A DNA stretch of 64,000 nt, from contig OZ037921.1 of the NCBI GenBank assembly GCA_964035575.1, positions 392,501-456,500 on the forward strand, given 5' to 3'. Below, one piece after another: positions 1,521 to 62,350 of this stretch. Positions within the stretch are counted from its first letter, which is position 1; every line of letters starts with the position of its first letter. A model generated the notes under the pieces. It made no database searches. It worked only from the letters and a program-made list of their open reading frames with translations, and had not been told where the DNA came from. This DNA comes from Rhynchopus sp. YZ270_cl-10 (Eukaryota > Euglenozoa > Diplonemea > Diplonemida > Diplonemidae). The position numbers and the translations under genes were made by a program.

Positions 1521-2110
1521 CGGGTTTTGAAAACCCAGAAACCCGCCCTAACTTAACCCCTGGTTGCATCTCGTAGAGAGGGAAAACCACGCAAACCACA
1601 CATCACACTGAACAGACATACATTGTTGAAACGTGAAATCATTGCTAAGAACATCAAACTCTCGAACAATAGGGATGGCAATCCCTCAAACAAACAAAAA
1701 AAATTACTATTGATTTGAAAATCAGACTGGTTTTCATTAATTCAGGCGAAAAAAAGAGGAGAAGAAAGAGAAAGAGAGAGAGAGAGAAAAATGTGGATCA
1801 GATGACCCTAAGCCTCTCGTGTTTGGTCACTTTTTTTGATCACAGTTGTTTGTCGTACAGCATCAGTTACTGGGGGGGGGCTAGGGGGGTCCGTCCGGCC
1901 GTTTTTGCTGTCCCAAACCACTTTTTTTTGTAAAAACCCGCGAAAAACCCCAAAAAATACCCCAAAACACCCCCAAACCCCCAAAAAATCACCCAAAACC
2001 ACGAAAAACACACTTTTGAGCACTATTTCGTACTTTTTTCTGATTTTTTTGGTGTTTTTTCCCGCTTTTTCAGCTTTTTTCCTGGAAATATACCCCCTAA
2101 TATTGCCTAT
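1521..2110. other. Gene-free AT-rich spacer
   Basis: Apart from one H1 hairpin (1795-1843) I see only homopolymer and GA-rich tracts. Confidence 0.6.
1795..1843 (+). repeat. H1 hairpin element
   Basis: First copy of the H1 family. The family consensus is an outer stem AAGATGA/TCATCTT, an inner stem CTAAGC/GCTTAG and a loop CTCTCGT. This copy has AGATGACC pairing with GGTCACTTT, the loop CTCTCGT, and an extra outer GATCA/TGATC clamp. Many later copies are preceded by GTTTATA and followed by TTGATCAC. Confidence 0.65.
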
Positions 2111-2115
2111 AGAAT

Positions 2116-2700
2116 CCCTGTACTGCTCACTGAGACAGCATAGCGACCAGAGGCTCCTTATTCATCTTACTGGTGTCTTCGCCGTCAAGGGGTGCACAAT
2201 TTGCCGCAAATTCCCGCAACTCTGTCTTTGTGAAGAGATGAAGCACTTTAGTGTTGTACTTTTCAAGTTGCTACTTCTGGGCGCTTTGCATGGACCTGCC
2301 TTTGTGGTGCGCTTTGGTGTGTGCTGCGGCAAGTTCTTCCCTTGAGAGAGACGGAACCCAACCTAGACTGTAGAGGATGTCTAGGTTCCAGCGACAGTGA
2401 GTCGGTGTTGTCGGGTGCTGGCTCCTTTCGTGGTGGCTTGCAACTTGGTCAAGGACACCGACAACGGATTCACACGAATTGTTGGTCATAGGAGGAGGCA
2501 AGGAAGGCTTTGCTACACTTAGGCACAGGGTACGTTGTCATTTTCAGGGACCAAAAAAGCCCTGGCAAGTGTTGCAAGTACGATGTCCCACAGCTCGGGA
2601 GGTCTGTCGGGCAGTTCGGAGGGATTTAGACACTTCTGCGACTGCATGAACACGGTTTTTAGGGTTTTTGTTTTGGGTGCAAAAAACGTCAAAAGGATAG
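2116..2700 (-). pseudogene. Possible decayed multi-exon gene or gene fragment, unidentified
   Basis: A GC-richer island with three adjacent minus-strand stretches of protein-like composition. They run from a part containing PSELPDRPPELWDIVL, through one containing LDILYSLGWVPSLSREEL, to one containing LFTKTELREFAANCAPLD that ends in a stop near 2116. Stops lie between the first two and between the last two in the simple reading, so this is either a short multi-exon gene with unresolved introns or a decayed copy. The last stretch has some resemblance to a SAP-type helix-turn-helix (L..L.K.ELREF), which is only a guess. I cannot name the gene. Confidence 0.3.
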
Positions 2701-58608: not shown

Positions 58609-59341
58609 TGTTGCTTGTCTTTGTAGATGTAAATAAATCTGTGTGTGTGGTGATAGTGGAGGTACGTCATGTGTGGAGTGGTGTGGTAAGGGTGCAGGTT
58701 GCAAGAAACAGGTATGGGGGTCTTTGTTTTTTGTCTTTTTGTTGGTGTCTTTGTTTTTACATTTTTTATCGATTGTTTTGCTTCTGGTCGGGCCGCAGGG
58801 CTGAGCGTGGCAAAAAGGGTGACAGACAAGCTCTTTCCTCCCTGTGAAATGACAGAGTGGACGGAGTGCTGCAGTGGGTGGTTTGATTTGCCCAGCAAGA
58901 CGGCCCGACACAAGAAGCGCTCCTACGGGGTGGGTGGTGGTGGGTGTGCCCAAAAGGGGGGATGAGCAAAAAAGAAAACGCGGGGGTTTAAACAACAACA
59001 CCTCCACAGCAACAGAGCATGCTTGGGCTGCCACACAGGGTGGCGTCACAAGAGTGCATCTGCGTTGCGAAGGTGCAAAATAAAGCAAAACAAAAGGGGG
59101 GTTTTGTATCTCTTCACCATGGGGGCAGGGGACTCCCAAATAAGGTGTACTTTTTTTGTGTCGTCTCCTTATCTAAACTGCGTGCGACCTCTTCGGCCCA
59201 CGTGCCTTTCTTTGTGGCTTTTTGGTGACTTTTTTTGTCGGTTTGTTTGACATTTTTGTTTTTGTTCTCGTTTTTCTTTTTTTGTATGACAACAAACAAC
59301 AGCAAATTCGTAGAAGCGTGGTGGAGACACAGACCTCACGA
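58609..59341. other. Spacer upstream of WD40 gene; duplication boundary
   Basis: The presumed WD40 promoter and leader lie at 58609-59044. From 59045 the sequence is the duplicated tubulin 3' flank. I see no further gene. Confidence 0.6.
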
Positions 59342-60697
59342 TCAGTACTCCTCAACATCCTCCTCTCCCTCGATGTCAGCGGACTCAGCTCCGACCTCCT
59401 CGTAGTCCTTCTCAAGGGCAGCCAAGTCCTCACGTGCCTCGGAGAACTCTCCCTCCTCCATACCCTCACCGACGTACCAGTGCACGAATGCACGCTTCGA
59501 GTACATCAGGTCGAACTTGTGGTCGATGCGTGCGAACACCTCGGCAATGGCAGTCGAGTTCGAGATCATGCACACGGCACGCTGCACCTTGGCGAGGTCA
59601 CCTCCCGGCACCACAGTCGGGGGCTGGTAGTTGATTCCGCACTTGAATCCGGTGGGGGACCAGTCGACGAACTGGATGGTGCGCTTCGTCTTGATGGTCG
59701 CGACAGACGCGTTCACGTCCTTCGGCACAACGTCTCCACGGTACATCAGGCAGCACGCCATGTACTTTCCGTGGCGGGGGTCGCACTTCGCCATCATCGA
59801 GGCAGGCTCGAACGCGGCGTTCGTGATCTCGGCCACGGAGAGCTGCTCGTGGTACGCCTTCTCCGCAGAGATCACAGGGGCGTACGACGAAAGCATGAAG
59901 TGGATACGCGGGTACGGCACCAGGTTGGTCTGGAACTCGGTCACGTCAACGTTCAGCGCTCCGTCGAAACGGAGGGACGCCGTCAGCGACGAGATCACCT
60001 GCGCGATCAGACGGTTCAGGTTGGTGTAGGTCGGGCGCTCAATGTCGAGGTTACGGCGGGTGATGTCGTAGATCGCCTCGTTGTCAAGCATGCACGCCAC
60101 GTCAGTGTGCTCCAGAAGGGAGTGGGTCGACAGCACGGAGTTGTACGGCTCCACGACGGCGGTCGACACCTGCGGGGACGGGTACACGGTGAATCCGAGC
60201 TTCGACTTGCGGCCGTAGTCCACCGACAGACGCTCCAGAAGCAGGGCTCCCAGACCAGATCCGGTTCCTCCTCCGACGGCGTTGAACACAAGGAATCCCT
60301 GGAGACCAGTGCAGTTGTCAGCAAGCTTGCGGATGCGGTCAAGGCACAGGTCAACAATCTCCTTACCAATGGTGTAGTGTCCACGGGCGTAGTTGTTGGC
60401 GGCGTCCTCCTTGCCCGAGATCAGCTGCTCGGGGTGGAACAGCTGGCGGTAGGTTCCGGTGCGCACCTCGTCAATCACGGTGGGCTCAAGGTCGAGCAGC
60501 ACGGCGCGGGGAACGTGCTTACCAGCACCAGTCTCGGAGAAGAAGGTGTTGAAGGCGTCGTCCTCCACACCGCAGGTCTTGTCCGACGGCATGGCACCAT
60601 CAGGCTGGATTCCGTGCTCAAGGCAGTACAGCTCCCAGCAGGCGTTACCCACCTGGCAACCGGCCTGACCGATGTGGATCGAGATCACCTCTCTCAT
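59342..60697 (-). CDS. Alpha-tubulin, copy 2
   Basis: 451 residues, apparently identical to copy 1 at 37771-39126, including GGGTGSG, Lys40 and the C-terminal EEY. The flanking 3' sequence differs slightly in a T-rich tract about 70-90 bases beyond the stop. Two identical genes could raise dosage or be kept alike by gene conversion. An assembly duplication is the alternative. Confidence 0.97.
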
Positions 60698-62350
60698 TTT
60701 AGTTGTTTGTTTGTTGGTTGTAGCGGACTGTGGTTCGTGGGTGTTGTGGGTGTGGTGGTGTTGTGGGTGATGCAGAAACACAACCTCGAGAACGAGGGGA
60801 CGTTGAAGAACAAATGAATGTGGGAGAGGGGAGCACACGGGACTTTTTGTGAAAAATGAGCTGAGTTGAGGGGTGGGTAAGGGGTGCGGGACCTTCCTCG
60901 CAATCAAGTGTCACGACAACGCGTGGGCTGCCTTTTGCGACACACGAGACATTGAGAAAGGGCACGACAAGTCGTGCTGCCAATCCGCCCTCGGGGGGCA
61001 GAAACAACAGCACTGTTGTTTTGAAATGAGAAACAACGAAAGGGAAGCAAAATGAGTGTTTGTGGAGGTGGGGGGTGGCGTGCTGATTGCAACATGACAG
61101 TCTGCCCCTCTTGACACATTGCTATGTGCTTTTCGGAGACAACCTGTTGCTGTTGCAATCACAGCACCACACACCGGTGGTGGACAAATGGCAATACACC
61201 CCACCGCAACCCATGCTGAAGAACGTGTCACAGACACATTCGAAGGCTAGGCAAGGGGGCAAGACGTTGACGTCTTGCCCACCTCGTCATTGCAACAAGC
61301 AAAAGGGAAGCAGGAAAAGGTGCCATCACAAAGAGGGGGCTCTTCACGTATCGAATCAAATGACACTGAGCATGAAAAACAAAAACAAAGAGTGGTTGAA
61401 AGTGCAAACGCCTCACCGTTCATCGGACGCAGGCACTAAACAAAAAAACGCTGTGCAGATGATCCTAAGCCTTGCGGATAGAGAGTCACCTTGTGAAAAG
61501 AAGTTAAATAGTGCAAAACGCTCCTTCCGATGCAAGCACCAGTGCCCCGCAGGGTGTCAGCGGGTCGAACTTTAAAAAGAAAAAACTAAGAGAGAAATAT
61601 GCGCCACACCCGCATATCGTGTGTGTATGTTGAAAAGAGAGGGAAATAACTCGAACAGATGAGTGGGCCTCACAGGCACAGCAAACACATCTTAAACAAA
61701 AAAGTGTATAAAAACGGCATTCGTCTCTTTCTTTTCTTTTACTTTTCCTATAGAGTTCGTTGGTTGAGTTGTCTTTGTCAGCTAAGCAGAGACACACACA
61801 TCATACAGCAACTGAGTAAAGAGAGCAAAAAACCCCCGCAGATAGGACAGTGACGCCCTTGCGTTTTCTTGGGGAGGTGTGTGTAGTGCTGCACAGCAGT
61901 CTAACCTGCTCCGCTGCGGCAAAGGCCTTCACCCTGCACCACAGCACAGCACAGCCACATATTCATTGTGCTTTCCTTTATTATGCTTCATATGACGTGC
62001 AATGAAGAACCCAACCACACAAACCTCGGTCCGCAAAAGAGTGAAAGAGAAAGAAAAACAATTTGGCACGCTCGCAGCTAAGGACAAGTGACAGAGTAAA
62101 ACCTCACAAAAAAAAAAGCAACAACCCAAAGAGCAGTACTGAAAGCGCACCTCGGACTGCATGTATTGTTTGCATTTATGCAGCTCTAAGGGTTGTGTTG
62201 TTAGGCTTTGTTTCTTTTATTTCATTTTTTCGTTTTGATAAAAAGGAAATACGAATCAGTGCATGCTAGCATTGGTTCGCCTTCCTGGATGTCTTAAGAA
62301 GTATGTTGTACAATACAATACAAACATCTGCACATCAACCTCACCATCCT
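60698..62350. other. Spacer copy 2 with hairpin cluster
   Basis: Duplicate of 39127-40779. The hairpins recur at 61257 (perfect 10-bp stem), 61401 (F4), 61456 (H1), 61510 (F4-like) and 61656 (F5). I noticed one substitution, near 61728. Confidence 0.7.

Follow-up and report, generated by a model that had tools for sequence, protein, structure and literature searches.

Short hairpins dispersed through a diplonemid genome are very probably LINE 3' tails, lying nearly all in the orientation of the genes

What are the short hairpins scattered over a 64,000-nt stretch of the genome of the diplonemid Rhynchopus sp. YZ270_cl-10 (contig OZ037921.1, positions 392,501 to 456,500; hereafter, the window)? 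A first-pass annotation put their number at about fifty, sorted them into six related designs, H1 and F2 to F6, with fixed loops and changing stems, and saw in them a sign of selection on RNA or cruciform shape. We compared the window with other stretches of the same genome (L001–L046; 152.4 Mb in 126 contigs, four of which are designated C1–C4 here). The stretches from C1 were chosen around H1 sites, and densities in them are not to be scaled up; gene calls throughout are crude. The hairpins are very probably the 3'-terminal stem-loops, or tails, of non-LTR (long terminal repeat) retrotransposons, the long interspersed nuclear elements (LINEs), together with short repeats bearing similar tails, all spread by reverse transcription.

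The position of the hairpins within LINE 3' ends carries this identification. The reading frame of the LINE family designated A contains RVT_1 and Exo_endo_phos domains. Its reverse transcriptase (RT) domain has matches at 96 places (96 of 286 candidates scored), none with stops, which group by identity to the family A query as A (94–100%), B (53–60%), C (44–45%) and D (40–44%); B and C are recognised by this match, the domain search having been run on A alone. Two 3' ends per group were fetched, eight stretches in total. The order is stop codon, F5, T-run in family A (read in L006/L034, L035 and L036); stop, CGAATATGAT, H1, T-run in family B (L037, L038); and stop, a few bases, F3, A-run in family C (L039, L040). 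For instance, the reading frame in L006 stops just 5' of F5, and in the stretch upstream a frame stays open for 1,480 codons. Since a hairpin follows the LINE stop codon and precedes a T- or A-run in all three families, F5, H1 and F3 are LINE tails. The family A protein has 62 relatives, at roughly 34–48% identity, and Diplonema papillatum is the organism given in every row that names one. The LINE-A 3' end also bears a hairpin with GGTTCGATAACC (L006 2353-2290, minus strand; L023 ~2874), which we take to resemble the tRNA B box. Nine of the 17 family D matches lie on contig C4, where two 3' ends enter repeats of a CTGGATCTNACACCACTCAACAA-like unit.

The dispersed copies have their 3' end in common and diverge upstream and in their flanks. 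Aligning the 3' ends of LINE A, B and C to the window and L011–L033 found 56 B, 22 C and 21 A tails, the LINE-B tail reaching 98% identity to the short H1 copies, or stubs. By eye, F4 appears to resemble the A tail and F2 that of C. A longer repeat that ends in F6 (F6-long) is like a short interspersed nuclear element (SINE) and has a constant start, preceded by YAG in 8 of 8 sense matches; compared with H1 for a tail common to LINE and SINE, F6-long has a similar loop on a different stem. A sister stem-loop retains the H1 outer stem and loop, with the inner stem swapped. Genome-wide, a 19-mer of F6 has 818 exact matches and one of F3 has 1,692. The six designs are not one kind: H1, F5 and F3 belong to three LINE families, and F6 to a longer repeat. 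An independent small-RNA or cruciform family gives way to transposon ends, the outcome that the first-pass annotation had named as refuting it, save that LINEs of at least three families are involved. Dictyostelium class I RNAs, earlier offered as a loose analogy, are short stem-loop RNAs present in many copies, whereas H1 is a LINE end and not an RNA gene. In this little-studied marine group, the biology of LINE tails accounts for what had looked like a new RNA family.

The H1 loop word CTCTCGT is enriched in the window, with 15 occurrences where shuffled sequences average 4.1 (0 of 100 shuffles reach 15). Genome-wide, CTAAGCN{0,6}CTCTCGT has 3,658 matches (1,838 + 1,820), while its reversed control has 14. 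Rfam gave no family at gathering score in the window. A covariance model of H1, built on the gene-sense strand and searched against 324 kb, returned 67 matches at E <= 0.01, every one on the assigned sense strand: 53 where gene direction is read from frames, and 14 in L001–L008 (C1 below 1.1 Mb), where direction is inferred. At E <= 5 there are 106 matches and three off-strand exceptions, all below 18 bits.

The strand on which the hairpins were first written turns out to be antisense. Across 20 C1 stretches of 10 kb, all 19 strict H1 matches as first written lie opposite most of the long GC-rich frames of their stretch, though L018, L022 and L030 each include frames that run against the majority; the element strand is therefore the gene strand. 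The window's genes at 33–64 kb lie on the minus strand, and it is on this strand that the hairpins correspond to element RNA. The H1 consensus folds at -12.6 kcal/mol on the gene strand and at -7.6 kcal/mol on the strand first written, because one outer-stem pair is G.U on the former and A.C on the latter. Folding z-scores are -4.1, -2.5 and -2.4 for the B, A and C stem-loops, and -2.8, -1.7 and -1.3 for the sister, F6 and F4 stem-loops. The copies that the first-pass annotation named at 7790, 14419, 19665, 23886, 30064 and 54582 are all present with the stems it gave. Listed by design, the copies in the window are:

1785..1837, minus: H1, a LINE-B tail copy (57.4 bits; aligns to the LINE-B 3' end)
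7689..7741, minus: H1 copy (43.0 bits)
7781-7834, plus: palindromic neighbour, the copy earlier named at 7790 (15 bits)
14853..14905, minus: H1 copy truncated within the stem-loop (41.5 bits)
15288..15340, minus: H1 copy, the best in the window (65.7 bits)
19439..19493, minus: weak H1 copy (24.7 bits, E 0.011)
19664..19706, minus: H1-like, outer stem swapped to TTTGGGATG/CATCCCAAA (from sequence; pairing -16.9 kcal/mol)
22669..22706, minus: sister stem-loop (inner stem TGTGC-type, loop ACAAGAG)
23877..23933, minus: H1 copy with CAAGC/GCTTG stem (38.8 bits)
24253..24306, minus: H1 copy (51.1 bits)
25146..25196, minus: H1 copy (41.6 bits)
32816..32877, minus: weak H1 copy (22.7 bits, E 0.036)
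34590..34642, minus: H1 copy upstream of a kinase gene (44.8 bits)
34796..34948, minus: fragment of the LINE-B reading-frame end (82.6% over 161 nt to L038)
35386..35438, minus: H1 copy (56.5 bits)
39871..39925 and 61442-61496, minus: weak H1 copy, tandem-duplicated (22.1 bits, E 0.052 each)
46776..46860, minus: weak H1 copy, then sister stem-loop (20.9 bits, E 0.1)
49193..49243, minus: H1 copy (40.3 bits)
54582..54612, minus: H1-like hairpin GACTCAAAGCC/GGGCTTTAGAGTC (from sequence; no model match at E 5)
56094..56145, minus: weak H1 copy (18.2 bits, E 0.51; LINE-B tail alignment E 0.00036)
4463..4515, minus: F3, a LINE-C tail copy (100% over 53 nt)
16589..16640, minus: F3 copy (92% over 52 nt)
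22138..22190, minus: F3 copy (85% over 53 nt)
31402..31467, minus: F3 copy (98% over 66 nt)
34647..34799, minus: F3 copy split by an insert (34647-34678 and 34782-34799; 100% over 32 and 18 nt)
35657..35712, minus: F3 copy (100% over 56 nt)
52845..52946, minus: F3 copy and a piece of the LINE-C frame end (81% over 108 nt)
14409..14468, minus: F2-type hairpin, AGTGCAG/CTGCACT (from sequence)
28374..28440, minus: F2 hairpin, LINE-C-tail-like
30060..30131, minus: F2 hairpin, AGCG/CGCT (from sequence)
31478..31531, minus: F2 hairpin
48836..48906, minus: F2 hairpin (from sequence)
5952..5987, minus: F5, a LINE-A tail copy (89% over 36 nt)
7062..7119, minus: F4/F5 copy (78% over 58 nt)
14539..14584, minus: F5 copy (89% over 46 nt)
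20341..20400, minus: F4 copy (88% over 60 nt to an F4 adjoining an H1 in L011)
24104..24157, minus: F4 copy (89% over 54 nt to the L011 F4; 34 nt to the LINE-A tail)
26236..26268, minus: F5 copy (97% over 33 nt)
39811..39866 and 61382-61437, minus: F4 copy, duplicated (75% over 56 nt each)
27591..27638, minus: F6 stem-loop, loop CACGAGAGGG (88% over 49 nt to L029)

Most B copies consist of the stem-loop and nothing more of the element. Of 56 alignments to the B tail, 39 begin no more than 3 nt from the 5' stem base, 6 further upstream and 11 inside; the corresponding counts are 12, 7 and 3 of 22 for C, and 5, 12 and 4 of 21 for A. Family B thus has a strong effect and family C a moderate one, while in A none is seen. 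Among the 46 H1 copies scoring 32 bits or more, the 10 nt that adjoin the tail in LINE-B are matched at 8 or more of 10 positions in one (random 0.0016) and at 7 of 10 in two (0.015), and the 10 nt before H1 copies are T-rich (246 of 460). An RT stalled by the stem would halt before copying it, which makes it more likely that the template of the H1 copies ended at the stem base. A different origin would make H1 an independent mini-SINE of about 53 nt that shares sequence with LINE-B and whose stubs come from its own RNA. The excess of stem-loop-only copies over longer LINE-B tails (39 at the base to 6 upstream) speaks for it, as does F6-long, another short element with a similar loop, but both LINE-B copies read have the tail right after their stop codon, stubs reach 98% identity to it, and no promoter was noticed, though no search aimed at one was made. 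We consider such an origin possible but doubtful.

Do the tails follow the genes in orientation as well? In the window and L011–L033, sense and antisense tails number 56 and 0 for B, 18 and 3 for A, and 21 and 1 for C. Genome-wide, kinase genes within 150, 200 or 500 kb served as the reference for gene direction, for the first 100 listed places each of H1 (from contigs C1 and C2), F6-long and F3, and for 95 LINE frames. Among these listed matches, the nearest kinase within 150 kb is on the same strand for 33 of 33 H1, 20 of 20 F6-long, 17 of 17 LINE frames and 20 of 22 F3; neighbouring kinases themselves agree in 42 of 42 cases. Within 200 kb every LINE frame compared agrees (A 13/13, B 11/11, C 2/2, D 2/2), and within 500 kb 7 of 48 disagree. 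Between two kinases of the same strand, agreement is 5/5 for LINE frames, 20/21 for F6-long, 13/17 for H1 and 12/16 for F3; the misses lie at 1.21-1.36 Mb of C1, and frames at 1.20-1.33 Mb there are mostly plus, like the elements. The elements also agree among themselves: the nearest H1 within 150 kb matches F6-long in 23 of 25 cases, and the nearest H1 matches F3 in 48 of 55. Orientation is thus close to locked for A, B and F6, and biased for C. Homopolymers on the sense strand are near balance (222 T to 168 A runs at >= 10 and 86 to 93 at >= 12).

Both orientations of F3 occur within 500 nt of each other in L046 (1194, 1657), and an antisense F3 lies in a minus-strand cluster (L045 2183). 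Three near-identical F4-like antisense copies (L011 ~3950, L021 ~8000 and ~8900; plus-strand coordinates) sit inside a larger repeat with GCGGAGCAAAAAA...AAATGGCGCCGCAGG, whose words are one-sided the opposite way.

Several observations weigh against this account of tails and their orientation. No tail of the A, B or C kind was recognised in the two family D 3' ends read, and the sister stem-loop, F2, F4 and F6 are not linked to any LINE frame. Three A tails and one C tail are antisense, so that the orientation lock is not absolute; two F3 copies miss the strand of the nearest kinase, and a plus-strand LINE-C frame at C3:213775 is flanked on both sides by minus-strand frames. Nor is one-sidedness unique to tails: of 97 dispersed noncoding 14-mers used as control words, 88 are one-sided, 8 of these lying in non-tail repeats, and the 9 that are balanced fall into three word groups. 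Finally, pyrimidine tracts of at least 15 nt outnumber purine tracts on the sense strand about twofold (336 to 164), so that target sequence could account for part of the orientation bias; even a 2:1 preference among targets would fall short of the 56 to 0 of the B tails.

How such copies might arise is a matter on which we offer a tentative proposal, plausible though short of probable: retrotransposition coupled to transcription, its commonest product being a bare stem-loop of about 53 nt from RNA trimmed to the protein-bound hairpin. The element's own protein would bind the stem-loop, reading mainly the loop, by analogy with a zebrafish LINE protein (PMC4176376), so that loops would stay while stems drift in pairs between families. 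Most copies would be templated by a short RNA ending at the stem base, either shielded by the bound protein or cut there. Insertion may then be primed on the transcribed strand, in DNA opened by transcription, giving sense copies; this is the least certain step. If the proposal is right, this is a strand-specific insertion system, and the stubs of about 53 nt would, to our knowledge, be among the shortest retroposons known.

The bias might instead arise after insertion, antisense copies being lost through selection or through RNA interference directed at antisense LINE RNA. D. papillatum has genes of an RNA interference pathway, according to passages of its genome paper (PMC10161547), and in Leishmania the bias of the short degenerate retroposons SIDER1 and SIDER2 differs between 3' untranslated regions and spacers, as reported in part of PMC2689281. 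LINE-A and LINE-B frames, however, look young (94–100% and 53–60% identity to the query, no stops) and are as biased as the old stubs, and loss would need to extend to stubs of 53 nt where genes are absent over a long distance, as in the window's first 33 kb (1-33 kb). We hold this to be a possible but doubtful source of the bias. A still less probable alternative is that insertion follows the direction of replication, and that this may be the direction of the genes here: genes and elements keep to one strand over long blocks and change it at the same places, and such blocks could be replication units, but nothing in our data separates replication from transcription. The sense bias in one-way clusters makes testable whether LINE insertion depends on transcription or replication, or is followed by selection or RNA interference.

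Parallels exist in part. Leishmania SIDERs lie between genes in polycistronic clusters and are mostly sense (passages of PMC2424063 and PMC2689281), most SIDER2 being oriented like their transcription unit (PMC2424063). At about 0.55 kb they are far longer than the H1 unit of about 53 nt, and their bias is weaker than the 56 to 0 of B: sense copies are in roughly 4-fold excess overall, and antisense copies in more than 3-fold excess in spacers between polyadenylation and trans-splice sites (PMC2689281). One-way gene clusters are common to this genome and that of D. papillatum; the portions of PMC10161547 that describe them mention neither tails nor element orientation, and a literature search found nothing on either in diplonemids. 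Stringent-type LINE tails (eel UnaL2, zebrafish ZfL2-1 and ZfL2-2) likewise end in a 3' stem-loop whose loop is kept and whose stem is replaceable, according to passages of PMC4176376, where a zebrafish LINE protein bound an RNA that had its own loop on a foreign stem but not one in which the loop was foreign and the stem its own. The kept loop is common to both systems, binding by the element's protein being a prediction here; the copies here differ in being mostly bare stem-loops and gene-oriented. Fixed loops with changing stems fit this mode of recognition, in which the loop decides and stems are exchangeable, and many natural stem swaps are on hand for testing it.

Paired changes around a constant loop had suggested selection on RNA or cruciform shape. 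The paired changes are real but modest. Over 62 noncoding sites chosen without regard to the 5' arm, a site's own arms pair better than permuted ones (-10.6 against -8.98, sd 0.26; 40 permutations). The signal comes from the 36 sites whose 3' arm departs from the consensus (-9.91 against -8.09, sd 0.45); where the 3' arm keeps the consensus (26 sites), there is hardly any excess (-11.56 against -11.25, sd 0.21). In the model alignment, double-change cells number 31 against 11.8 (sd 3.0) after shuffling, but 38 when partners are slid by +3. Departures in the best 65 H1 matches comprise 36 G.U and 39 A.C (the consensus G.U pair left out), and this comparison, tried as an indicator of strand within H1, gave no difference. 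The departures seen within H1 look neutral, so the constraint is most likely on the RNA of the active LINE and not on each scattered copy, copies then decaying neutrally. What survives of the earlier suggestion is that the hairpin with its kept loop matters and that stems change pairwise between families; a small-RNA or cruciform family in its own right is not supported.

That each copy is a selected RNA gene or cis-acting signal, for instance a trans-splice acceptor module, would account for the sense orientation, the pyrimidine tract after H1 and paired arms that beat permutation, but H1 is the tail of a LINE and its G.U and A.C departures are equal; we regard this as very improbable. As candidates, splice and processing signals were set aside: in 59 H1 copies the base ahead of the first downstream AG is C in 17, T in 16, A in 16 and G in 10, without splice-site bias, and copies lie at widely varying distances from called starts and stops, 0 of 50 copies outside called genes lying less than 399 nt from a start (by the crude calls).

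A dinoflagellate host was considered and set aside: the dinoflagellate spliced-leader sequence has no match in the genome, and the relatives of the LINE-A protein point to diplonemids. What we take to be the 3' end of the kinetoplastid and diplonemid spliced leader has two, at L010 1480-1525 and L009 ~1500-1530 (minus strand), with no other exact match genome-wide; both continue into other sequence and could be retrocopies of trans-spliced mRNA. The window itself contains a tandem duplication at an offset of 21,571 bases (37651-39246/59222-60817 and 40685-42028/62256-63599), which includes both a long repetitive frame and a gene resembling alpha-tubulin. L012–L014, on contig C1 at ~917-937 kb, hold one uninterrupted reading frame of about 6,480 codons.

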